DNA of 64,000 nt, taken from NCBI RefSeq assembly GCF_000281715.2, contig NZ_CP124576.1, positions 131,501-195,500 on the forward strand. Reading direction: 5' to 3'. The position numbers and the translations under genes are program-made. The notes beneath the pieces were generated by a model. The model was given only the letters and a program-made list of their open reading frames with translations, did not search any database and was not told the DNA's origin. Of this stretch, positions 1-25,712 are shown one piece after another (the first letter of the stretch is position 1; each line of letters starts with the position of its first letter). Origin of the DNA: Sphingobium sp. AP49. Its GTDB lineage: Bacteria > Pseudomonadota > Alphaproteobacteria > Sphingomonadales > Sphingomonadaceae.

Positions 1-600
1 GGCGACACCTGTTCCGATGACGGCGGCCTTGTCGGCGGATTCCATCTGGCCCCAGATTGGCAGCGCATAGCGTTCGGCGAGGCCACGGCCAAAGCTCTTG
101 AGTCGCTCATTGTCGGCCGCCTGCTCGGCGATCGTCTTGATACCGCCTTCCAGCGCACCCGTCGCCTGCTCGGCCTTGGCCTCCTGCAGCGGACCACCAT
201 TGTCCAACTGCACGGCCGGTTGGCCTGCGCCCTGTTGCAGGCTGTGCCCCAGTTCATGGCCGAGCAGCTTGCGGAACGGGGCACTGCCCGGCTGCCAATG
301 GCCGGGCGCAAAGGCGATGTCCCGGCCGGACGCCAGCGCATGGGCGCCAAGGTCGCTGACGACGCCTGCATCGCGGTGAACCCGCACAGCGGATAGGTCA
401 TGACCAAGGCGCCGCTCGAAAAAGCCTCGATCCCGAGCCGGGATGGGCTGCCCCGCACCAAGGTTGAGCCGGGGGTCGGCACGGGTCGAAGAAATATGCC
501 CGTTCGCTGGCCTTTCGCCCGTCGCCACACGATCGGCCGCCACCTCCGCGCTGGCGTCCGCCAGGATGCGCACGCGTGTCCGGGACGCACGGCTGGGCAT
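1..600 (-). CDS. DUF4157 (eCIS-core) protein with HELGH motif, C-terminus outside window
   Basis: Two hundred codons are open from an ATG at 600 to the window edge, so the C-terminus is missing. The first 60 residues are polar and low in complexity. A typical DUF4157 module follows at about residues 55-125: RGFFERRLGHDLSAVRVHRD, then GRDIAFAPGHW, then LLGHELGHSLQQ at about 113-124, which carries an HExxH zinc-protease-type motif. DUF4157 is the domain most often found in putative toxins and cargo encoded beside extracellular contractile injection systems. The ATG overlaps the TGA of the preceding gene (TGATG), so it is translationally coupled to the particle genes. I infer a cargo or cargo-associated protein. 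Any toxin domain would lie in the unseen C-terminus. Proteolytic activity is not shown, because DUF4157 often acts as a leader or packaging module. Confidence 0.85.
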   Translation of the reverse strand, partial: MPSRASRTRVRILADASAEVAADRVATGERPANGHISSTRADPRLNLGAGQPIPARDRGFFERRLGHDLSAVRVHRDAGVVSDLGAHALASGRDIAFAPGHWQPGSAPFRKLLGHELGHSLQQGAGQPAVQLDNGGPLQEAKAEQATGALEGGIKTIAEQAADNERLKSFGRGLAERYALPIWGQMESADKAAVIGTGVA

Positions 601-1457
601 CAGAACGCCCCGGCCGCCTCCTCTGCGGCCTTCACCGCGCGTGTCGCCAATCGCGCCGTTTGTTCCGCCACCGCCCTTGCCCAGTCGAGTCGCTTCTCGA
701 TGACCGCCTCTTCGGCGGCGGCCACGGCGGCAGCGGCCGATAGCCAGGCGTCGCGCGCCGTTGCCCAGTCGTCGCCAAGGCCGTTGTTGGCCAGACCGGC
801 CGCCAGACCATCGCGCAGGCGGCTATAATCGACATAGGACACTATGGCAGCATGATGGGCGGCATCGCCATCGGTCGTGGCCAAGGTGGTGGCGCGGGTC
901 AGCGCATCTTTGGCTGCGCTCAGTTGTGTGGCCAATATGCCGGCACTGCCTTCGATCATCGCAAGAAGATCGAGTGCCGCCGCCTTTTTCGTGACCAGAT
1001 CAGCTTTCTTTGTCGCTAGCGTGTCAAGCGCGGCCGTCAGGACGCTGGCTTCGTCGTCCGCCGTCGTCGCAATGTCCGTATCCAGGGTCTTCACCTTGTC
1101 GATGGCATCGTCGAGCTTGGCCTGGTCTCCCCCATTGGCATCCAGTACCGCAGCCTTAAGTGCGTTGGCGACGCTGTCCGACAGGGGTTGTCCCGCCCCC
1201 GTCTTGGCGGTCTGTACGGTTTGCAGGACGGTGGTGCGGGCATTGATTGCGGCGGTGATGCGTGAGGTGGCTGCATCCGCCGCAATCTGTTCGGCCTTGG
1301 CCCGGGCAATGGCCGAATCGATCTCTATCTGCGCTGCCCGGGTCTGGGCGGCGACCTGGCCGAATTGTGCGCCCTGCGCCATGGCCGTGGCGAGGGATGC
1401 GGTAAAGGTCGAACGGTCCTGTTCAAGGGACGCCACGGCGTCGGTGATGCTGGTCAT
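600..1457 (-). CDS. Ala-rich coiled-coil protein of the injection-system operon, function unknown
   Basis: This is a 285-residue protein made almost wholly of long amphipathic helices rich in Ala, Asp, Lys and Thr, predicted coiled coil from about residue 5 to the end. It has no signal peptide, no membrane segment, and no enzyme motif that I can recognise. It lies between the AAA+ ATPase and the DUF4157 gene and overlaps both by one or two bases (TGATG at each junction), so it belongs to the same transcript. Its place between the ATPase and a likely cargo gene makes a chaperone, cargo adaptor or structural linker plausible, but that rests on context only. Confidence 0.7.
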   Translation of the reverse strand: MTSITDAVASLEQDRSTFTASLATAMAQGAQFGQVAAQTRAAQIEIDSAIARAKAEQIAADAATSRITAAINARTTVLQTVQTAKTGAGQPLSDSVANALKAAVLDANGGDQAKLDDAIDKVKTLDTDIATTADDEASVLTAALDTLATKKADLVTKKAAALDLLAMIEGSAGILATQLSAAKDALTRATTLATTDGDAAHHAAIVSYVDYSRLRDGLAAGLANNGLGDDWATARDAWLSAAAAVAAAEEAVIEKRLDWARAVAEQTARLATRAVKAAEEAAGAF

Positions 1458-3370
1458 CAGGCGGCTCCTTCCGTTGCAATGGGCAGGAGCGGTGCAGGCC
1501 GCCCCTTTTTGGCAAATTCGGTCATGATGGCTTCCTGCAGATCGCGCGTGGTGATCCGGCGATCCTCATCGGCTGCGGCATAGGCAGCGGCGAGCGCGGC
1601 ATTGCGGATTTCGCCCCCGGTCATTTCGCAATGACGAGCCAGAAGGTCGAGCGGCAGGCGGGGGGTCAGCCGGGTTTCTGCCGGGAGATGCAATTGCCAC
1701 AGGCGCAGGCGCTGTGCCGCCGCAGGCCGGGGCATGGGAACGACGCTGTCGAGACGGCGCATGAAGGCCTCGTCGATCCCTTGGGCAAGGTTGGAGGCCA
1801 GAATGGCAATGCCATCAAAGGCCTCAAGGCGCTGCAGCAGGAAATTGACTTCGATATTCGCATAGCGATCATGGGCGTCTTCGACCGAGGTGCGTTTGCC
1901 GAACAGGGAATCGGCCTCGTCGAAAAACAGCAGCGCGCAAAAACCTTCGGCGGCGGCAAACAGCTCGGACAGATTCTTTTCCGTCTCGCCAATATATTTG
2001 GAAACGACCAGCGACAGGTCGACCTGCATCACCGGCAATCCCAGCCGGGTGGCGATGGCATCCGTGGCCAGGGTTTTGCCTACGCCAGAATCGCCCGAGA
2101 TAAGCGCGCAGAGACCACGTCGTTCGCGGTCCAGTTCCCAGTTGTTGCGAATGGGTATGCGCAGGCGATACCGCCGGATGAAATCCTCCAATCGGCTTTC
2201 TGTCGTCGCGTCGATGACCAACTGGTTCCAGGCGACTCTGGGCACGCGCAGGCTTGCCATCCGGACGGCCCGGGGCGGTACCGTCTCCATGCGCGCGGCG
2301 GCAAGGCGTTTGGGGTCGCCGCGCGCGCGCGATGCCAGCATCGCAATGTCGGTGGCGCGCATCCAGCTCTGGTTGGCGAGCATATTCACCTCCGCCTCAT
2401 CGAGATTGGGCATGGCACGGCGCCAATGTGCGATCCGTATCGCTGCATCGGGTGGCGGCAGGATGATCCGCGCAGGCGGGCGCTGGTGGGCGGTGGTGCG
2501 CAGGAATATGTCGGCTGGCGCCAGCAAGATGATCGGCGCGATCAGGTCGTCGGGCGGCATCCCCAACTCGCCACTTCCTGTCCAGGCGAGCGCGATCGGG
2601 CGCTGTTCGGCGACCGACAACATGGCCAACATGCGCCACGGGGGAACGCCGCTGCTCTGCACGACCAAGGCGGTGGGCGCGGCCATTTGCAGCAGGGCCT
2701 CGCCGCGCCAGCCTTCGCCCGCCAGATGCAGCAAGCAGCTGTCCGGTGTCGCCAGCCATGCGGACAAAGCCAACGCTGTGTCATCATCGGAGCCAGCCTC
2801 ATCGCCTATCGTCAATTCCGCGATCTCGATATCGGTTGGACGGGTGGCGTCGAGCACCGCCAACAGGGAAGTCTGCGGATCCAGGAGCCAATCGGTGGCG
2901 GGGGCGCCCGTTTCCGGCCAACGCAGCAAGCCGTGGCGCCACAGCGGACTGGCCCAAACCGCGCGGCGTGCCTCGATGGGAGCCAGCTTGTCGCCCAGCA
3001 GCAGCCGCAAGGCTACGCCTGCCGGCAGCCGGCGGGTACCGGAAAGGCCGGATATCAAGGCCGCGGCGCGATCATCCAGGGCAGGCAACAGGGCCAGACC
3101 GAGTAGATCGAGGTCGAAGGCGGACAGGGCGCAGGCGCGTGCAATGCGGCCGAGTGGTACGTCGGCAGTGGCCAGTTCCTCATACAGTATATCTGCGGCA
3201 TCGGGGATGATGATCGCGATGGCGGCCGGGTCCAGCTCATCGGTGGGCAGGATGGCGCGGGCGAGGTCCAAGAGAGGCGCGCGCGCTTCCGGGAGCCGCA
3301 GCAGCAGTCGCGCGGCGCCAATGCCGATCAGGCGCGCCAGCAGCGCGTCCGCGTCGATCGCGTCGCTCAT
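1457..3370 (-). CDS. AAA+ ATPase of contractile injection system (Pvc15/Afp15-like)
   Basis: A 637-residue protein. The first ~390 residues are a helical, Leu/Ala-rich N-terminal region. The C-terminal part is a classic AAA+ module with Walker A GDSGVGKT (about 425-432), Walker B LLFFDEADSLFG (about 475-486), and a likely arginine finger in FMRRLDS (about 535). Length and architecture match the cytoplasmic ATPase at the end of PVC and Afp loci, which is thought to act in particle maturation or cargo loading. The start was set at the ATG at 3370, whose ATGA overlaps the stop of the 169-residue gene; the open frame extends 17 codons further upstream but without family resemblance. It is not a ClpV: it has one AAA module and lacks the ClpV N-domain. 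Confidence 0.92.
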   Translation of the reverse strand: MSDAIDADALLARLIGIGAARLLLRLPEARAPLLDLARAILPTDELDPAAIAIIIPDAADILYEELATADVPLGRIARACALSAFDLDLLGLALLPALDDRAAALISGLSGTRRLPAGVALRLLLGDKLAPIEARRAVWASPLWRHGLLRWPETGAPATDWLLDPQTSLLAVLDATRPTDIEIAELTIGDEAGSDDDTALALSAWLATPDSCLLHLAGEGWRGEALLQMAAPTALVVQSSGVPPWRMLAMLSVAEQRPIALAWTGSGELGMPPDDLIAPIILLAPADIFLRTTAHQRPPARIILPPPDAAIRIAHWRRAMPNLDEAEVNMLANQSWMRATDIAMLASRARGDPKRLAAARMETVPPRAVRMASLRVPRVAWNQLVIDATTESRLEDFIRRYRLRIPIRNNWELDRERRGLCALISGDSGVGKTLATDAIATRLGLPVMQVDLSLVVSKYIGETEKNLSELFAAAEGFCALLFFDEADSLFGKRTSVEDAHDRYANIEVNFLLQRLEAFDGIAILASNLAQGIDEAFMRRLDSVVPMPRPAAAQRLRLWQLHLPAETRLTPRLPLDLLARHCEMTGGEIRNAALAAAYAAADEDRRITTRDLQEAIMTEFAKKGRPAPLLPIATEGAA

Positions 3371-3876
3371 GCCGCGTCTCCGTAACGAAAGGCGATCGTT
3401 CGACCGATGAAAGGCAGCCAACCCGGATCGATATCCCAGCCGGCCCGCCGCAGATCGATATCGGTATTTTCCATCGGCCAGACGATGGTGGCGCTCCAGG
3501 GCGTGGCGTGAAGCAAGCCGGGACGCATCACCAGTCGGGCAAGGCGCGCATGGTCAGGTTTTTCAGCGAACGGCTCCATATCGCCATAGATTCGGCGGAT
3601 GGTCGACGGTGCCCAGGCGGCTTCGGGCATATCCTCGATCAGCCGGTCAAGCCATATGTCGGCGCGGCTATCCAATGCGATGCCGTCAAGTGGTTGATCG
3701 GGCAAAGGCGTGCCGGCAAAGACCGCCAGCAACGGGCGATCCCGCTCCAGCGCCAGGCGGGCAGCCGTGGCCGGCAGGGGCAGCAGGCAGCGGCGCAATG
3801 CAGCCAGCCCGATTGCGCCAAGCATATCCGCGTTGATTTCAGCCGGCGGCAGCAACTGCAGCAAGGGGCGCAGCAT
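3367..3876 (-). CDS. Conserved small protein of the injection-system operon, function unknown
   Basis: A 169-residue protein between the tape-measure and ATPase genes. No catalytic motif is visible. The C-terminal ~60 residues look like a conserved module: MRPGLLHATPW at about 117-127, then a basic-aromatic stretch DLRRAGWDIDPGWLPFIG at about 140-157, ending in a short beta-like tail. Similar 'RRAGLDLDPGW' endings occur, as far as I remember, in uncharacterised proteins encoded in other contractile injection loci. The ATG at 3876 lies six bases past the stop of the upstream gene. An in-frame TTG lies just before it, and a run of eight G sits upstream, so a minus-one frameshift could also fuse it to the tape-measure protein. 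Confidence 0.7.
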   Translation of the reverse strand: MLRPLLQLLPPAEINADMLGAIGLAALRRCLLPLPATAARLALERDRPLLAVFAGTPLPDQPLDGIALDSRADIWLDRLIEDMPEAAWAPSTIRRIYGDMEPFAEKPDHARLARLVMRPGLLHATPWSATIVWPMENTDIDLRRAGWDIDPGWLPFIGRTIAFRYGDAA

Positions 3877-3881
3877 CAATA

Positions 3882-4829
3882 TCAGCCCCCCCCGAATATT
3901 TCGGTCAGAGGTGCAGGATCGGAGGATGTCACCGGCCCCGGGGCATTGACGCTGTTCGCCGCGGCGAGGGACTGGACTGCTCGTACCGGCTGGGCAGAGA
4001 TGATGTCCGGCGCCTGAATGGGCATGTCGGATGGCGTGGAGGCGAGCGCCATCGCACGCCCTGGCTGAGTAGCCATGACGACCGCCAGCGTAAGCAGCGC
4101 GCGCAGGCCCTCGGGCAACAAGCGAAGCCGATCGGCAAGATCGCCGTCCAGAACGGAAGCGATTTTGTCTACGAATATGGGCAGTGAACCGATGGGATCG
4201 GACGGCGGGTTCAGGGTGGTGGTGGGAGGCATGGTGCCAAGCTCGGCCAGCCGGCTGTTCAGTTGCCGGCGAAGCAGCATGGCCAGTCGCAGCGCATGTG
4301 CCTCTGGCAGGAGGTGCAGCAATGCCGGCTCCGTCATCAACAGGCGTAACAACAGGATTGTCGCGCGTGCCGGCTCGCGCTGCAGCCATCGCTCGATTAT
4401 CCCGGCCGGATCAATCTCTTCGGCCCACCATGGCATGGCGGCCTGCGTTGCGCGTGCGCGCAATATGGCGCATTCGGCGTCCCATATATCGTCATAAACC
4501 GCATCCTCACTGGAGGCGGCCGCCGCCTGCGGCCGTGCCCGCACGGCGGGCAGTTCGGCAAGAATGGCCGAGACGATCGCCTGTGCCCATGCTGCGGCGA
4601 TCGCGTCGGCCTTGGCATCGGCTGCGATCTGCAGGTTGACCTGCAGCGTTCCGATCGCGATCGCAAGATCACCATGCGATAGTGTCAGCGCGCCGGGGAG
4701 CAGAGCCTCAACTTGGGCAGGTAGGCGTACCGCAGCTTGCGCCAGCTGTGCGTCGAGCGTGGCTGCGCTTGCCACATCGTCACAAACGGCATGGATATGG
4801 GCGTGTCGAATGATCGTATCGACGCTCAT
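3882..4829 (-). CDS. Contractile injection system tape-measure protein (Pvc14/CIS_TMP-like)
   Basis: A 315-residue helical protein. The N-terminus resembles the CIS tape-measure family: an opening IIRHAHIHAVCDD beta/helix, a two-helix stretch, then the signature-like segment IAIGTLQVNLQI (about 55-66), where family members carry 'RIDRLELDLG', followed by another long helix. A PWWAEE motif (about 132-137) precedes the next helical repeats, as in the family. It is short for the family, in which members of 400 to over 1000 residues are common. In PVC-type systems this protein fixes tail length and sits in the tube lumen during assembly. It ends in Phe-Gly-Gly-Gly encoded over a G8 tract. The ATGA at its start overlaps the upstream stop. 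The assignment rests on position and N-terminal pattern. Confidence 0.72.
   Translation of the reverse strand: MSVDTIIRHAHIHAVCDDVASAATLDAQLAQAAVRLPAQVEALLPGALTLSHGDLAIAIGTLQVNLQIAADAKADAIAAAWAQAIVSAILAELPAVRARPQAAAASSEDAVYDDIWDAECAILRARATQAAMPWWAEEIDPAGIIERWLQREPARATILLLRLLMTEPALLHLLPEAHALRLAMLLRRQLNSRLAELGTMPPTTTLNPPSDPIGSLPIFVDKIASVLDGDLADRLRLLPEGLRALLTLAVVMATQPGRAMALASTPSDMPIQAPDIISAQPVRAVQSLAAANSVNAPGPVTSSDPAPLTEIFGGG
3886..3893 (-). other. G8 homopolymer at the tape-measure / small-protein junction
   Basis: Eight consecutive G on the coding strand, directly before C-TGA of the tape-measure gene. Re-reading one G (a minus-one shift) leads from Phe-Gly-Gly-Gly straight into the frame of the 169-residue gene through Leu-Ile-Leu-Met. 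This could be a programmed or phase-variable slip site, or chance in GC-rich DNA. Confidence 0.5.
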
Positions 4830-7597
4830 GTCGACCGCCGTACCAGATTGCCGGCAATGATCTGCCGGGCGATGCCGGTTCGGGTAGCCCCCAGGATATT
4901 GGTGACGGTTTCAGCACGATCGAGGAAGCGGGTGGCCTGCGCACTGGTACCACCGGCTGTGCGGGCTGCCTTGACGGCTGCAGCAGGGTCCTCATGCGCC
5001 GTTAAGGCGTCGGCCAGCGCCTTGGAAACCAGGCCGGTCGGCGCAGGCTTGCTGAAGGCCTCGGCCGCATCGGCCGATTCGGTGATCCGGGCCTTGACCA
5101 TTGCCTTGATCTTGGCGAGGGCCTCTGTCCCGCCGACCAATGCCGCCGCGTCATCGGGTGATCGGGCGAGCAGTTCGCCCACTGTCAGATCGGCAGGGAC
5201 CGTGTCTGGCATGTCCTTGCCCAGATTCTGGAGTGGCAGCGCATTGGTCGCATCGCGCATTTCAGCATAGATTGTGGCGCCGGCTGCGCTCGAAAATATT
5301 GGAGGCGGCGCAATTTTGTCCGAAAATGCGCCGGCGTTGGTGGCTGCAAGCGGAGACAGCACTGCCGGTTCGGTCGCGATGGATTTGACCAGCGCTTCGG
5401 TCGCCGCGGGCGGCTGGATAGCGCCGAACATCTGCAATATCTCGAAATCGGGATATGTGGCCGCGAAGCTGTCGGTCACTTGGTATAACGCCGCTTGGCG
5501 CCGCTCGGTCGCGTTGGGAATGGTCGATAGCAGCTTGCGATCCTGGGCCTCGACGGCTTCGCCGAAGGCCTTGGCGCGTTCGGGCGATGCGAGATCGGGG
5601 GCCACCACCGGCAGCGCCTGACGCAAGGTCGCGGTAAAGGCAGGATATTGTGCGACGGCGGCGGCGAGCTGCCGCTTCTCGGCGGGCTGGCCGGCGATGG
5701 CATCGGCTCGTTCCTTGACGGTCACCAACCGCCGTGTTTCGGTCGTCTTCGTTGGCGCAAAGACCTGGGAAACGAGCTGGATCATTTCCCAGAGGGTCAG
5801 CAACAGGTCCAACAGGACCATGCGCTGCTTGACATAGACGGTGAAATGGCGCGGCAGCATGTGAAGGTCGGCCCGTTGCGCGAGCGCCGCCATCGACCGT
5901 GCGTTAAGCTGCAGCGCTGCAGCGGCGGCATCGATCTGCCAGTCCGCCAGTTGCGACATGGCATCCTCTTCGACCACGCCCAGGATCGGATGCGTGCGTT
6001 CCAGGCCTTGGAGCGGCACGACCAGCTTCACCACCTCGATCGTGCGATTGGCCAGCTTATCCGCGCCGAACAACAAGATTAGCCGCAGCAGACGTCCGGT
6101 GCGGGTCAAGGGATTGCTGCCGATTGCGTCGATGCGCTCGGACACTGGCGCTGGCAGCCGATCGATATTGATGGGATCCTTGTCGAAGACGTTGGTCAGA
6201 TCTTCCAGGATATCGTCGTCGTGCAACGCGACGGTGGCATAGGCCAGAACGTTGGTGCGCTTGAAATAGGAAAGGCCTTGTTCCACCGCCGATCCGACCA
6301 GGCCCGATACGAGCAGGTTTTGCAGGCCAGCCGCCGCCAGATATTTGTCGAGTGTCTCGATGCCAGTGATGGCCTCGCCCCGTGGCAGGGCAGGATCGAT
6401 GGGGAGAAAGCCGATCGGCGGAATATGACGGAACCCGCGATCGAACAGGTTGACGTTCATCAGGCGCTCATCCCGGATCAGCGGTGCGACCTCGAGGCTT
6501 TCGGAAAGCATGCACTGAAATTGGTGAATACGCGCCCAGCCCGCCGATCGCGGTGGTGCGCCGAAACGGGTGCGATGCGTTTCTTCCCCTGGTGTCGCGA
6601 CGATCGTTCGCCGCGGGATCCATGGATCGACGAAGCGGGCGCTATGCTCATCAGCAAGATAGACCATGGCAAGTGCGATCGCACCGGGATCGTGCCGCCA
6701 TGGATTGGTCGGGCCGCAGAACCGGTGATCGGTTGCGAAGGGCGGGTCCCAGCGCTTGATCAGCGAATGTTCAAACACGTCGAAATAATAAGCGGACAGG
6801 ACACCGCGCAGGTCCCAGGGTGTGCGAACCAGATCGCTGGCCGGTACATCAACCGGAAAGCGGACCAGCGATAATCCGAAACCGCTGGTCCAACTGTCGC
6901 TTTCACAGGTGACGGGCTGAGCGCCTCCACATATGTCGCCATAGATTTTGGCGCTTCCGCTCGCCTTTTCGGCCGCCTCTATGATCAGCAGATAGGGGCC
7001 GGGCCGGATCGCCGGTCCGCCACCCTGGGGGCCGTCCGGTTCCGGAGCGAGACAGATGCAGGGGGCGAATTCGGTCTTGCCGGGGACGACCCGGCGCGGC
7101 CTGCGCCGGTGCAGGGTCACCAGGTCGGCGAGCGTGAAACGGAATGACTGGGGTACAAGGATCGGGCGCCCGATCATGTCGAACGCCAGACCCGGTGTCA
7201 GGATGATCTCGCGCTCTGCGGAAAAGGCCCATTGCATCCTTTGGTCATAGGGCGATGCGTTGAGCCCATCGGCTTCCAAGCCTAATCCATAGGCAATGCC
7301 GGGCGCCAGCATCTGGGCGTCGAGACGAGCGCGCTGATCGAAATAGCTATCCTGTCGGCGCAATGCCTCGGCGGTGAGGAACCGGCCGTTGAACCAGTTG
7401 GTGCGGTTCAGGCTGTTCCAGCCCTCCACGTCGCCCCCTGGTGCGACGGGTAGGCCGGCAGGGCCGATGCCGATACCGGCCAGCTTTCCGATCTCCCCTT
7501 CCTCGGCGATGGTCAGGGCTGCATGGCCATAGAGCTTCTTGGCCAGCGCGCTGAGAAGCGTAGCATTCGCCGTTTCGGATATCTCAGTGCCACTCAT
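4826..7597 (-). CDS. Large baseplate-region protein sharing an N-terminal domain with its neighbour
   Basis: A 923-residue protein. Residues about 65-170 contain NWFNGRFLTAEALRRQDSYF, then an APGIAYGLGLEA stretch and GLAFDMIGRPILVPQ. This matches, position for position, the pattern in the next upstream gene (YGQLLGAEDFTAEQKYH, HGTGVVAGLDI, GLAIDALGREIYVPE), so the two share a homologous N-terminal domain. Residues ~170-400 look beta-rich with several Cys-containing loops; ~400-900 are mostly helical. I see no signal peptide or enzyme motif. In PVC-like loci this place after the gpI-like gene usually holds the tail fibre, but the sequence has no fibre repeats. A peripheral baseplate or cage-like protein is plausible. 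It starts 11 bases after the upstream stop, with GAGG as ribosome site. Confidence 0.75.
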   Translation of the reverse strand: MSGTEISETANATLLSALAKKLYGHAALTIAEEGEIGKLAGIGIGPAGLPVAPGGDVEGWNSLNRTNWFNGRFLTAEALRRQDSYFDQRARLDAQMLAPGIAYGLGLEADGLNASPYDQRMQWAFSAEREIILTPGLAFDMIGRPILVPQSFRFTLADLVTLHRRRPRRVVPGKTEFAPCICLAPEPDGPQGGGPAIRPGPYLLIIEAAEKASGSAKIYGDICGGAQPVTCESDSWTSGFGLSLVRFPVDVPASDLVRTPWDLRGVLSAYYFDVFEHSLIKRWDPPFATDHRFCGPTNPWRHDPGAIALAMVYLADEHSARFVDPWIPRRTIVATPGEETHRTRFGAPPRSAGWARIHQFQCMLSESLEVAPLIRDERLMNVNLFDRGFRHIPPIGFLPIDPALPRGEAITGIETLDKYLAAAGLQNLLVSGLVGSAVEQGLSYFKRTNVLAYATVALHDDDILEDLTNVFDKDPINIDRLPAPVSERIDAIGSNPLTRTGRLLRLILLFGADKLANRTIEVVKLVVPLQGLERTHPILGVVEEDAMSQLADWQIDAAAAALQLNARSMAALAQRADLHMLPRHFTVYVKQRMVLLDLLLTLWEMIQLVSQVFAPTKTTETRRLVTVKERADAIAGQPAEKRQLAAAVAQYPAFTATLRQALPVVAPDLASPERAKAFGEAVEAQDRKLLSTIPNATERRQAALYQVTDSFAATYPDFEILQMFGAIQPPAATEALVKSIATEPAVLSPLAATNAGAFSDKIAPPPIFSSAAGATIYAEMRDATNALPLQNLGKDMPDTVPADLTVGELLARSPDDAAALVGGTEALAKIKAMVKARITESADAAEAFSKPAPTGLVSKALADALTAHEDPAAAVKAARTAGGTSAQATRFLDRAETVTNILGATRTGIARQIIAGNLVRRST

Positions 7598-7608
7598 CTC
7601 ATGCCTCC

Positions 7609-11258: not shown

Positions 11259-11260
11259 GC

Positions 11261-13893: not shown

Positions 13894-13895
13894 GG

Positions 13896-18075: not shown

Positions 18076-18266
18076 CAATATTCTACCGCGGTCCGACGAT
18101 AGCGCTCCATTTCCTCCGCGATCAGTTCGCGGACGATGGCGCGCAATTCCTCGATCTGGACCTCCTCGGCCGGAGCCGATGCGGGGCCGGCCTGGTCTCC
18201 CCCCCTGCTGCCGGGGGCCGGATCGACACTGATCTCGGTCGACATCTGATTGATGGTCACGGGCAT
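18075..18266 (-). CDS. DUF5908 small protein (Pvc6/Afp6-like)
   Basis: A 63-residue protein that begins MPVTINQMSTEISVD and ends in an acidic/basic helix, EELRAIVRELIAEEMERYRR. This short layout (a beta-like N-terminus, a linker, a C-terminal amphipathic helix) fits DUF5908, a small family found in injection-system loci next to the tube-adaptor gene. Function is unknown. The ATG at 18266 shares a base with the stop of the adaptor gene (TAATG), so it is translationally coupled. Confidence 0.78.
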   Translation of the reverse strand: MPVTINQMSTEISVDPAPGSRGGDQAGPASAPAEEVQIEELRAIVRELIAEEMERYRRTAVEY

Positions 18267-19507
18267 TAACGGCCTCCCCCACAACAATGACGGCAACCGC
18301 AGTCCCCGGCGGAACGGTCGTGGCGCGGTTGAGCCATGGCGACCGCTGCACCCGAAGAAAGGGCGCCTTCCCAACGTGGGCGCCGCTCCTGGGCAGTCGC
18401 GTTGCTGATCGGAACCGATCGACGGCCGAACATCGCCGGCTGCTCGATCTGCGCGCGCGCAATGATGGGCGGGGGGGAACCCTGGATGGCGGCTGGGCGC
18501 ATATCCGCATCGGGCGAGCCAAAGGCATTGCGGGCGGCGAGCACTCTGCCGGCCAGTTTCGCCGCCGTGCTGCCGGCGGCTGGGCCGTCTGGTGCCCAGG
18601 CCGATGGCGGCGGTGTGATGCCGGCGTTGCTTTGGGCAGGCCCGCTGCTGCCTGGCATTTTCAGGCCGGACAGGCCAGCGTCGCCCTGGCCGATGCCACT
18701 GCTCGCAATCACCGCGCCAGGGCCGAATACAGACAGGGCCGCCTCCGCATCAAGGCGAATGCCTGCCTGGAGCGACAGGCCAAGATCGCCGTCGAGGCCC
18801 AGCGATCCCGCGAATGATGCAGACAGGCTGACGGACGCGGCAGCCGACAGCGACAGGTCGAAGTCGCCGCCGATGCCCGATCCCGGCGCGCCCGGCCCGC
18901 CGAACAGGCTGTCCTGGCCAGCGGCAGCGGCGGCGGTTCGCGCTGATGCGGAAGGCGGTGCCGCTGCCTGCCGGGCCAATTCGCCGGCATCGACCGAATA
19001 GGCGAAATCCTGTTCGCTGATCGTGATCTGCACCTTGCTGCGCAGGGGCGTGCCGTTAGGCGAAAAGAAATCGAAACTTTCCTGATAGGATGTAATGATC
19101 CCATCGAAGACGATCATGCCCCATTGGAAGCGGACCCGTCGGGGCGATTTTTCCTTGGCCGCCTTGTCTCCACCCGGCACGGCATTGGCCAGCAGGTCGG
19201 CGATGGGCTTGGTCCGTTTGCGGACGTCGAGCGCATCATCGTCGTTGCGGTCCTCCGCACGGACATCGTCGGCGGTTCGTGGACGGGAAGTGTCGAATAT
19301 AGCTTCAAAACTCAAGGTGGCCGCCGATGCGCCAACACTCTGTACCTGACCCCGACCTTTGCGTGCCTTGTCCTGCTGCTGCCCGCTGCTGACCTTGAGC
19401 GTCAAGGTTTCCGGGTTGAAGTCGAACCGGGTCATCTTGTCGGTCTGTGGCGTCGTGCCCTTCTCGTCGAAGGGGGTCAGCCGGGCGCGGGTGAGCTGTT
19501 CCGTCAT
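18266..19507 (-). CDS. Contractile injection system tube adaptor (Pvc7-like) with long low-complexity and Cys-rich tail
   Basis: A 413-residue protein. Residues 1-165 match the CIS tube N-terminal domain: RFDFNPETLTLKVSSGQQQD, then ATLSFEAIFDTSRP, RRVRFQWGMIVFDGIITSYQ and FDFFSPNGTPLRSKVQITIS. The rest is unlike the usual ~220-residue Pvc7. No clear LysM segment is visible; instead about 200 residues rich in Gly, Ala and Ser follow (for example SASFAGSLGLDGDLGLSLQA), and the protein ends with DCGCRHCCGGGR, five Cys-His type ligands in nine residues. The protein caps or starts the tube near the hub. The ATGA at 19507 overlaps the second tube gene. Confidence 0.85.
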   Translation of the reverse strand: MTEQLTRARLTPFDEKGTTPQTDKMTRFDFNPETLTLKVSSGQQQDKARKGRGQVQSVGASAATLSFEAIFDTSRPRTADDVRAEDRNDDDALDVRKRTKPIADLLANAVPGGDKAAKEKSPRRVRFQWGMIVFDGIITSYQESFDFFSPNGTPLRSKVQITISEQDFAYSVDAGELARQAAAPPSASARTAAAAAGQDSLFGGPGAPGSGIGGDFDLSLSAAASVSLSASFAGSLGLDGDLGLSLQAGIRLDAEAALSVFGPGAVIASSGIGQGDAGLSGLKMPGSSGPAQSNAGITPPPSAWAPDGPAAGSTAAKLAGRVLAARNAFGSPDADMRPAAIQGSPPPIIARAQIEQPAMFGRRSVPISNATAQERRPRWEGALSSGAAVAMAQPRHDRSAGDCGCRHCCGGGR

Positions 19508-19986
19508 GCGTCCTGCCTCCACCAGCCCTCATGGACGATGTGCAGTTCCTCGATCGGCACGTCCCGTGCGTCTCCGGCATTGAGGTCGGCGGTCTTCACC
19601 TTGGATGCAAAGCCATTGACGAAGCGGAACTCGGCGGCGTCCTCTTCCGCCGGGTTGGGACCACGCACGAAGACGGAACCGGAAATATAGGGAAGCGGAT
19701 AGCCGCCTTGCGTGCAGCGGCGGATCCAGTGCCAGAAGCCGGGATCGAGTGACAAGCCGCGCTTCAGCACCAGCGGCACGGTCGTCGTCTTGCCGGGAAG
19801 CTGGCGCGGGCCGGCATGATAGCCGCCCTCGCGGAACGTCACCGGCTCGATGGCGATCTCCAATCCCGCCACTTCGCTGAACGCACCCTTGGGATTTTCC
19901 GTCGTGCCCTGCACCAGTGCTTCGTCGCCACCCAGGCCCGACAGCACCAGCTCGACGCGGAAATTATGGCGCGTCAGCAGCGTCAT
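19504..19986 (-). CDS. Second inner-tube protein (gp19-like, Pvc1/Pvc5 paralogue)
   Basis: A 160-residue tube protein of the T4 gp19-like family: HNFRVELVLSGLGG, then AFSEVAGLEIAIEPVTFREG, TTVPLVLKRGLSLDPGFWHW, and a C-terminal DVPIEELHIVHEG. The same layout occurs in the other tube gene of the operon (AFSDVSGMSAEITHADYRTG, then ITLKRGLVAALDLFQW), so they are paralogues. PVC-type systems use such paralogues for the main tube and for the layer nearest the baseplate; this one, adjacent to the tube adaptor, is the better candidate for the baseplate-proximal layer. ATGA overlap with sheath 2. Confidence 0.9.
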   Translation of the reverse strand: MTLLTRHNFRVELVLSGLGGDEALVQGTTENPKGAFSEVAGLEIAIEPVTFREGGYHAGPRQLPGKTTTVPLVLKRGLSLDPGFWHWIRRCTQGGYPLPYISGSVFVRGPNPAEEDAAEFRFVNGFASKVKTADLNAGDARDVPIEELHIVHEGWWRQDA

Positions 19987-21938
19987 GCCGTCACCTCCAT
20001 GCGCGGATCGTCGGCACCATGGCGCACCAGGTTGAACAGCAGGAATTCGGACGGCACCGCCGGCGCGACCCCGACCAGCATGATCGCGCGTCCAAAATCC
20101 AGGTCGCTCTGGGCCATCGTGCTGCGGTCGCACCGTATGAAGAAACTGTCGCTGGCCCGTCCGCCCGCCAATGCGCCAGCATCGAGCAGTGCCAGCAGGC
20201 GCCTTTCGGCGGTGCGGATCATCGCCCGCCACAAGGCGCCGTCATTGGGTTCAAACGGCGCCCAGGCCAGGTCGATGGCAAGCTGCAGAGCTAGCCAGTC
20301 TAGCAGCCGCCGCACGCTGATATGGGTCCATTCCGCGTCAAACGCGGTGGTGCGGCTGCCCATCAGTTGCAGCCCTTTTTCCGTGGCCCGGATCTGGTCG
20401 ATCCGTTCCTCGTGCAGGAAGCCGGGGCCGGGGAGGCCCGCGTCGCCGGCCAGCGCAAAAATGCCATGCAGAGTGGTCGCGCCCGGTGATGCGAACACCC
20501 CGACATCCCGTTCTGCGCGGGCGATCAGGCCCGCGACCGCCGCAGCGGGGGGAACCGCTACGCCATCGGCGTTGTCGATGCGCAGCCAGGGGGTAAACAG
20601 CGCTGCGCGGGGCGATGCCAGCGCGCGGCGCCAGGCGATGATCTCGCCGCTGGACAGGCCGGTGGGCAGGTCGAGCAGCGCCATGCGGCGGCCATGCGCC
20701 TCGCAATGTCGGACGAAGCGCAACTGTGCCGCGCCCAGTTCCGCGCGCGAATCGGCGCCCAGCTTCGGGTAAAGCAGGGGGGATGCGGCCAGGGGAGCGG
20801 GCTGATGCAGGCAGGGTCCGAAACAGGTTTCTGCCGGGGGCGCAGCCAGCGCAATATCCGCCTCTCTCTGCGGGGGATGGACCAGGTCGGGCAGAGCGAC
20901 GAGCGCGACCGGCGCGGTTTCGCTGCGCTCGTCCCATAGTGTCAGCGCATCCAGCGCATCGATGAAATGATCGCGCGTGGTTGTCCCGGCCGCGTCGAAG
21001 CCGCGATCGTCGTCCTCCAGCGTGCGGGCATCGAAGAAAAGCCCGTCGGGCGCCAGCATCAGGGCCAATGACGGCATCAGAACATGATCGATCAGGCTCG
21101 GGTCGGGCCGCAGAAATTGCGAGCCGTACGGGGCATCGACATCGCCCGGCGCCAGCTTTTCGACCAGGGCCGCGCGGTCCAGAAGATATGGCAAATGGTC
21201 CGGGTGGAAGGGATGCAGCGCTGCGTCGGACCAGCTTTCAACCAGACTGTCATTCAATGCGATGTCGAGTTGGAGGGTCAGCGCCTCCGTCGCCGACAGG
21301 CGGATTTCCTCCACTGTGGGCGCGACAGGCGGATCGATCAGGATGGCCGTCAGTCCGCCCGTCGGCCGACCCACGTCGACGATATGGCGCACCATGTCGG
21401 GCGGGTCACCGGCCAGCGTGATGGTTGTGCCGGCCACCGCGCGGTCCATCGGGGCCAACAGCGTGCCGTCGGTCCATGGCGGCATCCCGATCGCGCGGCG
21501 CAGTGGCAGGATACGCCGATTGACCCGCAACCGCAGCGACAGCCGGTTCGCCCAACTGCCGGCCGACCGGGCAGAGACCGCCGCCAGCGGGCCAAGGCCT
21601 GGCAGCAGCAAGCGGGCGGCCCGCGCCTGGTCTGGATCGACGACCCGTATGAACAGGCATTGGCGGCCGCCATTCTCGAAGAAAAGCCGGACGGCCAGCG
21701 GCCCCTGCAGTCCCTCGATGGGCGCGCCAAATGCCGCCTGGAAGGCCGGCCAGGATTGCAGCGGAACCGGAATGCCGACAGGGCCACGCTCGGCCAGACC
21801 GACAAAGGCAGCCATGTCCAACCGCACCTGCTTTCGCTGTTCCGCGCCTGCCTGCACTTCATAGACGCCGGGGGGCAGGCCGGCGCGCCAGCGCGCTCCG
21901 GTATAGGCGTTGCCAGTCAGGGGAAGGGGCGTGGCCAT
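19983..21938 (-). CDS. Second tail sheath protein (Pvc4-like paralogue)
   Basis: A 651-residue sheath protein. The N-terminus has PPGVYEVQAG, then FVGLAERGPVGIPVPLQSWP and AVRLFFENGGRQCLFIRV, all sheath landmarks. The C-terminus has SVRRLLDWLALQLAIDLAWA, then FEPNDGALWRAMIRT, FFIRCDRSTMAQSDLDFGR and MLVGVAPAVPSEFLLFNL, aligning closely with the other sheath gene. The middle is divergent. The start was set at the ATG at 21938, preceded by GAGGGAGGG; 75 codons of open frame further upstream have no family match. This copy is likely a specialised (cap or baseplate-proximal) sheath ring. Confidence 0.92.
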   Translation of the reverse strand: MATPLPLTGNAYTGARWRAGLPPGVYEVQAGAEQRKQVRLDMAAFVGLAERGPVGIPVPLQSWPAFQAAFGAPIEGLQGPLAVRLFFENGGRQCLFIRVVDPDQARAARLLLPGLGPLAAVSARSAGSWANRLSLRLRVNRRILPLRRAIGMPPWTDGTLLAPMDRAVAGTTITLAGDPPDMVRHIVDVGRPTGGLTAILIDPPVAPTVEEIRLSATEALTLQLDIALNDSLVESWSDAALHPFHPDHLPYLLDRAALVEKLAPGDVDAPYGSQFLRPDPSLIDHVLMPSLALMLAPDGLFFDARTLEDDDRGFDAAGTTTRDHFIDALDALTLWDERSETAPVALVALPDLVHPPQREADIALAAPPAETCFGPCLHQPAPLAASPLLYPKLGADSRAELGAAQLRFVRHCEAHGRRMALLDLPTGLSSGEIIAWRRALASPRAALFTPWLRIDNADGVAVPPAAAVAGLIARAERDVGVFASPGATTLHGIFALAGDAGLPGPGFLHEERIDQIRATEKGLQLMGSRTTAFDAEWTHISVRRLLDWLALQLAIDLAWAPFEPNDGALWRAMIRTAERRLLALLDAGALAGGRASDSFFIRCDRSTMAQSDLDFGRAIMLVGVAPAVPSEFLLFNLVRHGADDPRMEVTA

Positions 21939-21949
21939 GCTTCCCTCCC

Positions 21950-22405
21950 TCACTCGTAAGCGATGTCTTCGCAGACCAGGACCAACTCCTCCATGGCCAC
22001 GTCGGAGGCGCCCTTGGCGGCGAGTGTCGGGCCGGTCCATTTCTGTGGCCGGGCATTGGTGAGCTTCCATGTCGCGACGGTTGCCGTGCGATCCTCGCTC
22101 ATCAGTTCGATCACCACGCTCGCCTTGGCGGCCAGAACGCCCTCTTTCGCGGCCTTGACCCATTGAAACAGGTCGAGTGCGGCGACCAGGCCCCGTTTCA
22201 AGGTGATGTCGCCGGTCTTGTTCATCAGCGGGATCTTGCGCACATGATTGGCGGGGTCCGTGCCGGTGCGATAATCGGCATGGGTGATTTCCGCGCTCAT
22301 GCCCGACACATCGGAAAAGGCAGCCTTGATCTCCGCACCGGTGCCCGGTGTGATCGTGACGCGGAAGTTGAACGGCCCATATGGGTCTTCACGGGTGATG
22401 GCCAT
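21950..22405 (-). CDS. Main inner-tube protein (gp19-like, Pvc1-like)
   Basis: A 151-residue gp19-like tube protein. It begins DPYGPFNFRVTITPG, followed by AAFSDVSGMSAEITHADYRT, PLMNKTGDITLKRGLVAALD and LFQWVKAAKEG, and ends VAMEELVLVCEDIAYE. Length and pattern fit the abundant hexamer-forming tube subunit. A GGAGG site eight bases before the ATG is among the best ribosome sites in the operon, as expected for a subunit needed in many copies. It lies 16 bases downstream of the sheath gene. Confidence 0.94.
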   Translation of the reverse strand: MAITREDPYGPFNFRVTITPGTGAEIKAAFSDVSGMSAEITHADYRTGTDPANHVRKIPLMNKTGDITLKRGLVAALDLFQWVKAAKEGVLAAKASVVIELMSEDRTATVATWKLTNARPQKWTGPTLAAKGASDVAMEELVLVCEDIAYE

Positions 22406-22413
22406 GTCCTTGT

Positions 22414-22418
22414 CCTCC
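22414..22418 (-). promoter_or_regulatory. Strong Shine-Dalgarno for the main tube gene
   Basis: GGAGG on the minus strand, eight bases before ATG 22405, in one of the few true intergenic gaps of the operon. Confidence 0.6.
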
Positions 22419-22421
22419 CCC

Positions 22422-24284
22422 TCAGATGATGCTGGCTTCGGCCGTCCACTGGCCGATGCGGAAGATCACGAATTCGGCAGGCTTGGTCGGTGCCACGCCG
22501 ATCAGGCAGACCAGTCGGCCATTATCCAGATCATTCTGACTCATGGTCGTTCGGTCGCACCGCACGAAATAGGCCTGTTCGGGCTTGGTCCCCATCAGTG
22601 CGCCGCTGCGCCAGCTATCGTATAGGAACGCTTCGATCGTCAGCCTGATCTTGAGCCAGAGCTGTTCGTTGTTCGGCTCGAACACCGCCCATTGGGTTCC
22701 GCGGTCGATCGAATGTTCCAGATAGATGAACAGGCGACGGACATTCACATAGATCCATTCCGGATCGCTGCTGATCGTCCGGGCACCCCAGACCAGGTTG
22801 CCCCGCCCCTCGAAGCTGCGCAGGCAATTGATGCCTTCGGGATTAAGCACATCCTGCACGCCCTTGGTGATGGCCGTGGAAAAGCGCAGCGCGCCGCGCA
22901 CGACTTCGTTTGCGGGTGCCTTGTGGACCCCCCGGCTGATGTCGGACCGGGCATAGATGCCGCATATCGCGCCCTCCGGCGACAGGGTGACCACGTCACG
23001 AGGGGCGCTGGGCGAGGCATTGGGCACGACCAGCCAGGGATGGTAGAGCGCTGCATATTTGGAGTCATGATCGGCGCGGGCTTCGCGGATCACGGCTGGA
23101 TCGGCGGTCCGTTCGGCAGCCAGCACGGCGAAGCGATATTTGAGCAACTCGCAATGGGTGATCAATGCGTCGCGGACCGACTGACGTTCATCCTCGGTCT
23201 CAAGTGCTGCCGAACCCGGCGCGGCGACGATGGCGATGTCGTCAATCTCCGCCAGGGCTTCCAGGCCAGTTGCGCTGTCGCCGGTGCCCCCGCCGCGATA
23301 TTCGATGAGGCCCGGGGTGGCCCCATCGTTGCCGCCGGCCAGGGTGAAGGCCGCGCCATCGATCAGCGCGCGCAACAAGGTTCCGGCGAAATCGGCACGC
23401 GCGGCTGGTATGTCGGGCAGCGGTGCCGGCAAGCTCAAGAAGATACGGTTGGAATTGTCCGCCGGTGGCGTGATTCCGTTCAGCGGATCGGCGGTGCGCA
23501 ACACCCGCCCCACGAACAGTTCGCTGTCGGGATGGGGCGACAGGCCAGCAATCTGGTCGACCCGGCTGCCGGTTGATCCATCGCCATTGGGTTCGACCGT
23601 CAGGGTCAGCGCGATCTTCTGCACGATCGTCGTTGCCGACAGCGTAACGCTGCCACCCGCAGAGGTCAGCGTCGGCCGCCCGGTCTGGTCGAAGGAGACC
23701 GCCGCCAGGTCGGTCGGCACCGATGACAGCGCCTCGCCTGGACCACTCGCCCCCGCCGGCGCGACCAGCCGCTGCTTCACACTGGCCGACACCTCCACCA
23801 CATCCCCTGGGCGCACGCCGGTCAGGGTAAACTGGCCGCCTTGGCTGACACATAGATTGCCGCTGCGTACCGCCTGGATCCGGATCCGGACATTGCCCGC
23901 GAGCCCCGGGAAGCGGGCGGAGATCGACACCGGACCAGCGCTGGTCAGGATGGCCGGTGAAGTTGCGATGAAATCGGCAGGTGGATTGCCGCCCAGCCCA
24001 AAGATTCGGGCGATGTAGACGCGCGCGCCACCATTTTCGAAGAAGAGTTGCACCGCGCGCGCCATATGGTTGATGGTTGGTACGCCGCCGATCAGCAGGT
24101 CCGCGTCGTCGCCGAAATAGCGCTGATACTCCTCGAAGCTGGTGACCAGGACCGGCGTGCCTTCGACCGGTCCGAAGCGGCATGCCCCCACAAAACCGGT
24201 GGTCGAGGTGGAAACGCCCTCGATCGATTTTGCCCGATAGCTGGTTTCCTCGACATAAACACCCGGAGCAAGATATTCTGGCAT
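22422..24284 (-). CDS. Main tail sheath protein (Pvc2/Pvc3-like)
   Basis: A 620-residue contractile sheath protein. The N-terminus is canonical: YLAPGVYVEETSYRAKSIEG, then TSTTGFVGACRFGPVEGTPV and EYQRYFG, MARAVQLFFENGGARVYIAR. A variable beta-rich insert occupies about 130-300. The C-terminal conserved half has GIYARSDISRGVHKAPANEV, LRSFEGRGNLVWGARTIS, VRRLFIYLEHSIDRGTQW, FEPNNEQLW, AYFVRCDRTTMSQNDLDNGR and IGVAPTKPAEF. These are the core contacts and attachment arms of the family. It sits first among the structural genes and has the best ribosome site of the cluster. The contraction of this sheath drives the inner tube. Confidence 0.96.
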   Translation of the reverse strand: MPEYLAPGVYVEETSYRAKSIEGVSTSTTGFVGACRFGPVEGTPVLVTSFEEYQRYFGDDADLLIGGVPTINHMARAVQLFFENGGARVYIARIFGLGGNPPADFIATSPAILTSAGPVSISARFPGLAGNVRIRIQAVRSGNLCVSQGGQFTLTGVRPGDVVEVSASVKQRLVAPAGASGPGEALSSVPTDLAAVSFDQTGRPTLTSAGGSVTLSATTIVQKIALTLTVEPNGDGSTGSRVDQIAGLSPHPDSELFVGRVLRTADPLNGITPPADNSNRIFLSLPAPLPDIPAARADFAGTLLRALIDGAAFTLAGGNDGATPGLIEYRGGGTGDSATGLEALAEIDDIAIVAAPGSAALETEDERQSVRDALITHCELLKYRFAVLAAERTADPAVIREARADHDSKYAALYHPWLVVPNASPSAPRDVVTLSPEGAICGIYARSDISRGVHKAPANEVVRGALRFSTAITKGVQDVLNPEGINCLRSFEGRGNLVWGARTISSDPEWIYVNVRRLFIYLEHSIDRGTQWAVFEPNNEQLWLKIRLTIEAFLYDSWRSGALMGTKPEQAYFVRCDRTTMSQNDLDNGRLVCLIGVAPTKPAEFVIFRIGQWTAEASII

Positions 24285-24292
24285 GGGTCTGG

Positions 24293-24298
24293 CCTCCT
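24293..24298 (-). promoter_or_regulatory. Consensus Shine-Dalgarno for the main sheath gene
   Basis: AGGAGG on the minus strand, spaced eight bases from ATG 24284, within the 22-base gap after the beta-sandwich gene. Confidence 0.65.
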
Positions 24299-24306
24299 AT
24301 TCGGGA

Positions 24307-25146
24307 TCAGGGCAGCAAGTGGATATCCCAGCGGCTTCGCGCCGCCGCCTGCACCGGCAGCGGCGCGGATCGGGGCGCCCCGCCGGCCGGGACGAGCGCG
24401 AAGGCGCGCGGGATGAAGGGGGAGCCGATTGCGTCGGGATCGAGCGTATCGAGATCGGCGGGCAGGGCGGAAACGAACCGCGGCATCGTCCGCAACGCGG
24501 ACGTCAGTGCGGTGCCGGGCACATGGACGCGTATCGCCCGGTCGAAAACGGATGTCAGCGTGAACGGGTCGGTCCGCTCGGCCGGCAGCGCCAATATATA
24601 GGTGCCGCTGCGGTCTGCATGGGTGACGATGCGGGTCGATGCCACGCTGTCGATCATGATGCGGGTAAGTGGCACGGGCGTCCCGTCCATCTCGCGTACC
24701 ACCCCCCAAAGGATGGTCAGACCCGGCGTTGCCGGTGCACTGATAGTGGGGCGCAGGGCAATATCGGCGATCCATGCGGGGCGACCGTCCGGTCCTGGCG
24801 GGTCGACCGGGGGCGTACCGCCGGCCGTTGCTGCGGCAAGGATCGCGGATCGATCGGGCACGATGATGTCCCGTGCCGCCGGGAACCAGCGGCCCGCCGG
24901 ATCGGTTACCTCGATCCGCGCGGACCCCGGCCGTAGTTTCAGAAAGCCATAGATGCCGGTTTCGACATGGAACCGGGCATGCTCGGCGCTATTCTGGACG
25001 TGCACATGCAGCCCAGCGATCGTCGGCCCGGCCAGTGGCTGATACTCCGCCACATAGCGCAACGGTCGCACCGCCAACCGGCCGACCGCAACGATGCGAT
25101 CGGGCGCCCGGCCATTGGCCCAGTCGATGGCGCGCTCGGCTATCAT
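24307..25146 (-). CDS. Injection-system protein with carboxypeptidase-regulatory-like beta-sandwich
   Basis: A 279-residue protein between the DUF4255 and sheath genes. It appears to hold two beta-sandwich units. The first is at ~30-95 (HVETGIYGFLKLRPG, then RIEVTDPAGRWFPAARDI). The second is at ~140-200 (ILWGVVREMDGTPVPLTRIM, then THADRSGTYILALPAE), which follows the 'G-V-x-D-x-x-G-x-P-V ... T-D-x-x-G-x-Y-x-L' pattern of carboxypeptidase regulatory-like domains. No signal peptide or catalytic motif. The ATG at 25146 forms an ATGA overlap with the DUF4255 stop; a longer in-frame start exists but reads as out-of-frame DUF4255 sequence. It may decorate the particle or help cap it; the function is unknown. 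Confidence 0.75.
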   Translation of the reverse strand: MIAERAIDWANGRAPDRIVAVGRLAVRPLRYVAEYQPLAGPTIAGLHVHVQNSAEHARFHVETGIYGFLKLRPGSARIEVTDPAGRWFPAARDIIVPDRSAILAAATAGGTPPVDPPGPDGRPAWIADIALRPTISAPATPGLTILWGVVREMDGTPVPLTRIMIDSVASTRIVTHADRSGTYILALPAERTDPFTLTSVFDRAIRVHVPGTALTSALRTMPRFVSALPADLDTLDPDAIGSPFIPRAFALVPAGGAPRSAPLPVQAAARSRWDIHLLP

Positions 25147-25712
25147 TCCGGCCGACCTTCGGCAAAGACGAGACTGCGCATATTGGTCATTGGCGCATCC
25201 TGTTCGATGCGCGGTGCCAGCCTCACGGCACGCACGACATAGCCGACCGACAGCTGATAGTCGGCGTTCATCGCATCCCAGACGCGCATCAGTTCGTCGG
25301 TTGCCAGGGGTTCCAGCGTGATCTTGAGCGCGTCGTCGCTTTCCCACCCATAGGCGTCCGACAGCAACGGCCCTGCCAGGACCGCGTTGCGGTCCAGAAT
25401 ATCCATGCACTGGCCCAGCATGACATGCTCGCCGAGTGCCGACTGCTTGCCCCAGACAACCAGTAAATAGCGCAGTTCTAGCACCATGGCTGTTCGCCGC
25501 GGTGCCATCGGATTGGCCTGGGGCAATGGGGCGTGTCGCCTGTTCGGATCGCTCTCAACCCGATATAAGATCAGCGCTATTTGATTTTCGAGGGTGGAGC
25601 TGACATCTCGAGGCGACAGAACAAAGATGGAATAATCACCAAGATTATTCCCCTCCCTGAGGCGAGACTCAAGTAGATCCTTGATAGATTGGCTGCACCC
25701 AGCAATTGACAC
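25143..25712 (-). CDS. DUF4255 protein (Pvc16/Afp16-like tail cap/terminator)
   Basis: A 189-residue protein of DUF4255. It has SQSIKDLLESRLREG near the N-terminus, VSSTLENQIALILYRVE (about 36-52), VLELRYLLVVWGKQSALGEH (about 80-99), ALKITLEPLATDELMRVWDA, and the strand LSVGYVVRAVRLAPR. In Afp and PVC this protein caps the sheath-tube top and ends tail growth. It is the first gene of the operon here, whereas it is near the end in PVC. The start is GTG 25712 with GGAAAGG upstream. The first ~60 codons are clearly richer in A and T than the rest of the operon. Confidence 0.88.
   Translation of the reverse strand: MSIAGCSQSIKDLLESRLREGNNLGDYSIFVLSPRDVSSTLENQIALILYRVESDPNRRHAPLPQANPMAPRRTAMVLELRYLLVVWGKQSALGEHVMLGQCMDILDRNAVLAGPLLSDAYGWESDDALKITLEPLATDELMRVWDAMNADYQLSVGYVVRAVRLAPRIEQDAPMTNMRSLVFAEGRPE

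Follow-up and report, generated by a model that had tools for sequence, protein, structure and literature searches.

Gene content of the operon

The window analysed here, a 64,000-nucleotide stretch of the Sphingobium sp. AP49 genome, spans C1:131501-195500 in a genome assembled as one contig of 4,506,188 bases. An earlier note on its sequence had proposed that positions 1-25712 encode a complete extracellular-type contractile injection system on the chromosome, that is, a contractile injection system (CIS) of the eCIS family. Gene calling gave a compact run of 22 minus-strand genes, reading from window position 25712 to C1:127500. The 21 contiguous minus-strand genes counted earlier within 1-25712 were recovered, and a chromosomal location is consistent with the single 4.5 Mb contig. 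The window nevertheless truncates the operon, which passes the left edge by about 4.0 kb; 21 of the 22 genes lie wholly or partly inside, with g21 overrunning the edge and the 22nd gene falling wholly outside.

Pfam matches were judged against curated cut-offs. Those above cut-off were Phage_sheath_1, Phage_T4_gp19 (twice), CIS_tube, Phage_GPD, Phage_base_V, GPW_gp25, Baseplate_J, Tail_P2_I, AAA, Pvc16_N and eCIS_core (twice). The eCIS core-gene criterion was taken from PMC8213781 and applied with Pfam families instead of that study's profiles. Ten core families were above cut-off on eleven genes, the tube family occurring twice and Pvc16_N being counted for Afp16. The structural genes and the ATPase are:

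25143-25712, minus strand: g41, cap/terminator, 189 aa from a GTG start; Pvc16_N (DUF4255 family) E 8.5e-33
22422-24284, minus strand: g39, sheath 1 (Cis2-like); Phage_sheath_1 above cut-off; PDB 9ezm E 4e-105, 8bky E 6e-105
21950-22405, minus strand: g38, tube 1; Phage_T4_gp19 E 2e-32
19983-21938, minus strand: g37, sheath 2, a diverged paralogue; below Pfam cut-off, matching solved CIS sheaths in the PDB at E 2e-45
19504-19986, minus strand: g36, tube 2, predicted to be tube-initiator-like; Phage_T4_gp19 E 2e-21
18266-19507, minus strand: g35, tube adaptor (Cis7/Afp7-like); CIS_tube E 6e-22
18075-18266, minus strand: g34, DUF5908; E 7.5e-4, below cut-off
16984-18078, minus strand: g33, hub, a gene apart from the spike; Phage_GPD E 1e-11
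16280-16963, minus strand: g32, spike with OB domain; Phage_base_V E 2e-25
13495-13818, minus strand: g30, gp25 wedge/sheath initiator; GPW_gp25 E 4e-24
11261-13498, minus strand: g29, gpJ/gp6 wedge (Cis11-like); Baseplate_J E 1e-13
8892-11258, minus strand: g28, gpI wedge; Tail_P2_I E 6e-10, residues 503-602
1457-3370, minus strand: g23, AAA+ ATPase, predicted to be Cis15/Pvc15-like; AAA E 2e-21

Profile or PDB matches confirmed the families of the two sheaths, two tubes, CIS_tube protein, hub, spike, gp25, gpJ and gpI wedge proteins, AAA+ ATPase, cap and DUF4157 proteins. The assignment of g34 to DUF5908 was borne out in part: the profile matched over its full length and a Caulobacter homologue exists, but the score fell below cut-off. 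The cap start at 25712 was supported by a Pvc16_N profile covered nearly end to end and by a Caulobacter homologue of 188 aa.

Pfam scans of the 22 operon genes found no phage head, packaging or lysis family. A VipB-type sheath of the type VI secretion system (T6SS) had no match in the genome at E 0.001, the same profile being positive in an E. coli control, and a classical T6SS was rejected on this result. TssJLM families were absent from the operon in Pfam scans, no TssJLM search being made in the rest of the genome. The genome contained no PAAR match and no further Phage_sheath_1 match at E 0.001. The earlier statement that head, lysis, integration and T6SS membrane-complex genes are lacking holds for the operon; an integrase does exist, but at a distance to the left. 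With its core families, Pvc16 cap and DUF4157 proteins, and with no head genes, VipB or PAAR, the locus is well supported as a member of the eCIS gene family. Judged by these families, it is a real contractile injection system gene set.

Insertion site and neighbouring genes

The operon forms an island of about 30 kb between bamE and tRNA-Leu. Empty sites were found in two of eight congener loci (G331, G324), where bamE, tRNA-Leu and an alpha/beta-hydrolase gene are consecutive, about 115 bases standing in place of the island; the other six were uninformative, their downstream neighbour lying outside the fetched stretch. Third-position GC content (GC3) was 0.742 in the island (21 genes) and 0.809 in 38 flanking genes (p 7e-6). 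No flanking direct repeat longer than 12 exact bases was found. We conclude that the island was horizontally acquired and carries no trace of its mode of insertion.

Two congener loci, G318 and G320 (L135, L137), share the bamE context and carry other genes there, the hydrolase neighbour not being in the fetched stretch. The genes right of bamE in G318 looked GroEL/GroES-like by eye. The region to the right of bamE seems to have been rearranged more than once.

Left of the island lies a prophage remnant, with a tyrosine integrase at C1:113402-114628 and a TMP_2 tape-measure gene at C1:116575-118485. These genes are 9-14 kb from the island, with dinB, yceD and bamE between. Together with the phage-tail homology of many operon genes, they would allow the cluster to be read as a defective prophage or an R-type tailocin, not an eCIS. 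The eCIS markers Pvc16_N, DUF4157, CIS_tube and DUF5908, present alongside an AAA+ ATPase, argue against this. None of 501 sheath-matching phage records covered 80% of the query and all were below 60% identity, the 20 matches listed being at 21-28%. Capsid, terminase and lysis families were also absent, in Pfam scans, from the neighbours covered (14 of 20 on the left, within 30 kb, and 10 of 36 on the right; the left-side scan took the integrase without its last residues). Among these neighbours, the expectation that no capsid or terminase gene lies just outside the window held. On the distant phage sheath matches and the lack of head or packaging genes among the 22, a prophage or tailocin was rejected, and we regard it as highly improbable.

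Relatives, gene order and distribution

The closest cluster was found in Caulobacter vibrioides T5M6, for which the literature searched gave no description. Its gene order is identical, from cap to DUF4157, and 20 of the 22 genes can be aligned across at least 81% of their length, with identities of 43-86%, including sheath 1 (69%), tube 1 (86%) and gpJ (67%). The two remaining genes were g25, about two thirds of which aligned at 34% identity, and g20, which aligned in its DUF4157 region only and has no counterpart there. The next relative was a Chromatiales metagenome-assembled genome (MAG), which we take to be a gammaproteobacterium, with 64% sheath identity. Same-family clusters were more distant, at 43-58% for sheath 1 over the aligned parts. 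The order was common to eight of the ten fetched, G204 and G081 differing, with some slots assigned by position only (phmmer did not find sheath 2 of G113, and G191 and G096 had no CIS_tube call). The opening of cap, g40-like gene, sheath, tube and sheath was also found on plasmids of Roseomonas marmotae, Rhodococcus opacus, Cereibacter sphaeroides and Streptomyces clavuligerus. These four clusters share this start, followed by hub and baseplate genes, and differ in the slot between spike and gp25, in fibre genes and in cargo.

A sheath tree was built from the last 340 residues of 45 of 49 rows, four being dropped as short or doubtful; its root serves for drawing only. Sheath 1 grouped with the Caulobacter and Chromatiales sheaths (support 100/99). 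All 14 labelled second sheaths fell on one side (support 97/85, four such branches being flagged as long), which suggests that the paired sheaths are ancient in the lineage.

The earlier note had described a gene order, with the cap first and the ATPase and DUF4157 genes last, unlike that of well-studied systems. The order itself was as described. The difference stands in relation to Afp/PVC, and does not stand as a peculiarity: an order peculiar to this genome was rejected because many relatives, in the same-family, Caulobacter and plasmid clusters, have the same one. The cap-first, two-sheath order is that of a widespread lineage. The locus is not a new type of machine, and is a further member of a known, little-studied two-sheath CIS lineage.

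Matches to gpJ were found in 3 of 94 genus genomes including this one, where the match was full length, the other two being partial and weak. In the family sample, 20 of 298 genomes matched gpJ and 9 of 298 matched the g31 profile. In the class sample the g31 profile matched this genome only (1 of 385), a sample without the known Caulobacter and Roseomonas-type carriers, which therefore measures rarity and not range.

Comparison with solved systems

Afp and PVC (subtype Ia) have several sheaths, two tube types, cap, ATPase and fibres, as here, but their genes are arranged differently and their tip is a PAAR protein, for which this genome has no match. Sheath 1 scored 169 bits with the best Afp sheath, as against 356 for 9ezm.

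The closest solved sheath by E-value was that of Halogeometricum borinquense (PDB 9EZM), level with that of Streptomyces coelicolor (subtype IId; PDB 9GTP/9GTS), which sheath 1 matched at E 6e-105; PDB 8bky and 9gtp hold one shared sheath sequence. Likeness to the S. coelicolor CIS extends to the cap, tube, Cis7, Cis9, Cis11 and Cis12 types. According to PMC12237407, that system is cytoplasmic, has one sheath protein and no tail fibre genes, and requires the membrane protein CisA; here the operon has two sheaths and fibre-like genes, and encodes hub and spike separately. The H. borinquense system, which also has DUF4157 cargo, is membrane-bound and contact-dependent (PMC11566945); its authors report no homologues of plug (cis6), tape measure or crown, and name a conserved six-helix membrane protein as candidate anchor.

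The tape-measure-like gene and completeness

A tape-measure-like protein is encoded in two pieces, located by tblastn with homologues of 515 and 522 aa:

3882-4829, minus strand: g25, N-terminal half of the tape-measure-like protein
3367-3876, minus strand: g24, C-terminal half, in another frame

The two genes correspond to a single 515-aa gene in Caulobacter, and the Chromatiales homologue (522 aa) is likewise one open frame. The frames join at a run of eight G (window 3886-3893, minus strand) at a conserved motif; the run is one of five G/C runs of at least 7 in the window. The junction could reflect misassembly, a slippery or (phase-)variable tract, or decay.

Identification as a tape measure was partly sustained. 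Two of five homologues matched CIS_TMP weakly, below cut-off (E 0.0019 and 0.034), and three gave no match; in this genome g24 and g25 had no Pfam match, and the halves lie in two frames. The earlier description of the system as complete fared similarly: the core gene set is present, while the change of frame at the 8-G run within the tape-measure-like gene, and the truncation of the operon by the window, leave completeness unproven.

The conserved halves joined at the homopolymer, and the intact frames in Caulobacter and the Chromatiales MAG, weigh against a working machine and would fit a cluster that is decayed or incomplete and makes no functional particles. The remaining 20 operon genes are all open, however, and assembly is error-prone at short homopolymer runs. 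Short stand-alone C-terminal halves also occur elsewhere: nine homologues of 131-251 aa were found, five of which were examined, in a search admitting proteins of similar length only, so that fused homologues could not appear. Only three of these count, on contigs of at least 60 kb, because the other six sit on contigs shorter than 3.2 kb and some are perhaps fragments. On balance, we consider decay unlikely.

Fibre-like genes and probable DUF4157 cargo

Downstream of the wedge genes lie two fibre-like genes, and the operon closes with two DUF4157 genes:

7609-8895, minus strand: g27, fibre-like; CIS13-type N-terminal domain, NF053767 E 2.6e-13, below cut-off
4826-7597, minus strand: g26, the second and larger; CIS13-like N-terminal domain, NF053767 E 6e-6, below cut-off
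1-573 in the window, minus strand: g21, DUF4157/eCIS_core, 366 aa, running about 0.5 kb beyond the window edge
C1:127500-130976, minus strand: g20, DUF4157 with a nuclease-like C-terminus, 1158 aa, wholly outside the window

The Caulobacter homologue of g27 matched Big_5 (E 6e-4, below cut-off), and four of eight fibre-slot proteins scanned in relatives carried collagen, Ig-like (below cut-off) or TIG domains. PMC12923769 describes an eCIS type, found mainly in Bacillota and Actinobacteriota, whose fibres include bacterial Ig and collagen parts and which has a special Tail_P2_I adaptor.

The eCIS_core matches of g21 and g20 were at E 3e-19 and 2e-26, and these are the only two DUF4157 genes of the genome at E 0.001. 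The C-terminus of g20 is a putative PD-(D/E)XK-like DNase domain, a type in which E, D and E-x-K residues conserved on an alpha-beta core would be expected, and g20 is the likely payload.

Other DUF4157 genes were seen in relatives. Upstream of the Caulobacter cap are a DUF4157 protein of 1717 aa, which contains a metallo-beta-lactamase-like domain, and a 277-aa neighbour (L057 2440-8423); the same machine carries a different payload there. Within the structural block of Rhodococcus opacus, sheath 2 and tube 2 are separated by two DUF4157 genes (L117 25772-30285).

The spike-gp25 slot and mode of action

Between spike and gp25 the operon encodes an unnamed protein:

13896-16286, minus strand: g31, 796 aa, with a conserved hydrophobic C-terminal tail at residues 744-792

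Database searching returned 40 proteins including g31 itself (39 relatives), of which 31 rows were aligned. Residues 744-792 formed the best-conserved 49-residue stretch, with a mean majority fraction of 0.82 against 0.57 overall; this tail is hydrophobic with basic residues at its end. The predicted model comprises a soluble head and a linker of low confidence, and places a 26-residue helix within the tail. Searches with g31 gave no NCBIfam row, no PDB sequence match and no clear fold match, and nothing in Pfam or PHROG scored better than E 0.05.

The slot was surveyed in ten clusters (eight same-family, Caulobacter and Chromatiales), a strongly hydrophobic segment being defined as a mean hydropathy of 1.9 over 19 residues. 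The slot protein carried such a segment in nine of the ten, compared with 14 of 189 other cluster genes; the single miss, G014, peaked at 1.83. In eight of ten the segment lay at most 28 residues from the C-terminus. Beyond these clusters it was present in Roseomonas, Rhodococcus, Geminicoccaceae and an Actinomycetospora reading frame. The Cereibacter slot protein has no segment at the threshold, and the S. clavuligerus plasmid cluster has no annotated gene in the slot. A short slot protein of 252-256 aa was seen in G011, G014 and Roseomonas, two of the three having the segment at threshold; the g31 profile matched none of them.

These data suggest that g31 touches a membrane beside the spike, in the producer or the target. 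More tentatively, the slot might encode a part, specific to this lineage, that inserts into membranes and keeps a hydrophobic hairpin at its C-terminus as its best-conserved stretch. It would replace the missing PAAR tip and join the spike to a membrane, either docking the particle in the producer or opening the target membrane. If so, the lineage would be a hybrid with fibres plus a membrane device of its own. In layout, the g31 tail at the very C-terminus differs from CisA, in which a periplasmic domain follows the helix. All 22 operon proteins have at most two hydrophobic segments each, as against six helices in the candidate anchor Hbor_38620. The g31 family offers a handle on how the CIS of this lineage meets a membrane, a question that the Streptomyces and archaeal machines pose as well.

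Sequence alone does not decide the mode of action, the nearest solved sheaths being cytoplasmic and membrane-bound. Those sheaths, from the membrane-bound haloarchaeal and the cytoplasmic S. coelicolor systems, weigh against a released particle. They would suit the same machine fired from inside its producer, with the g31 tail docked at the cytoplasmic membrane, either as a T6SS-like contact weapon or as a suicidal cytoplasmic CIS of the Streptomyces kind. The conservation of the tail, the hydrophobicity of the slot protein across the survey and the lack of an obvious adjoining immunity gene point the same way. Firing from inside is less easily reconciled with two fibre-like genes here and adhesin-type domains in some relatives, with the absence of detected similarity between g31 and any solved protein, and with the S. 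clavuligerus and Cereibacter slots. It appears possible, and the less probable of the two modes.

We favour, with a probability of about 0.6, a horizontally acquired eCIS-family machine of the cap-first, two-sheath lineage that is released and injects under the direction of its fibres, over membrane docking or suicide firing. Of the description 'extracellular-type', the eCIS gene family is well supported; action outside the cell follows from that family and the fibre-like genes only. Under this reading the AAA+ ATPase may help load the DUF4157 proteins. The particle would be freed from the cell, its fibres would bind the target, and sheath contraction would inject the cargo. Once delivered, g20 would act as a toxin that cuts DNA through its putative PD-(D/E)XK-like domain, and g31 would contact the membrane of producer or target next to the spike.

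A near-complete chromosomal two-sheath CIS with a clean empty site in congeners would allow cost, benefit and target to be tested by gene removal. The conserved, membrane-prone g31 and the probable DNase payload g20 are points worth a bench test.

Remaining operon genes

Two proteins are characteristic of the lineage:

600-1457, minus strand: g22, lineage protein, 285 aa
24307-25146, minus strand: g40, lineage protein encoded after the cap and before sheath 1; CarboxypepD_reg E 9.5e-5, below cut-off

No family in the profile libraries matched g22 at E 0.1; the Caulobacter gene in the same slot is 43% identical over 230 aligned positions. The g40-slot genes of the Roseomonas and S. clavuligerus plasmids are annotated as carboxypeptidase-regulatory-like. 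In g28, about 500 residues precede the Tail_P2_I domain and contain repeats that looked beta-propeller-like by eye.

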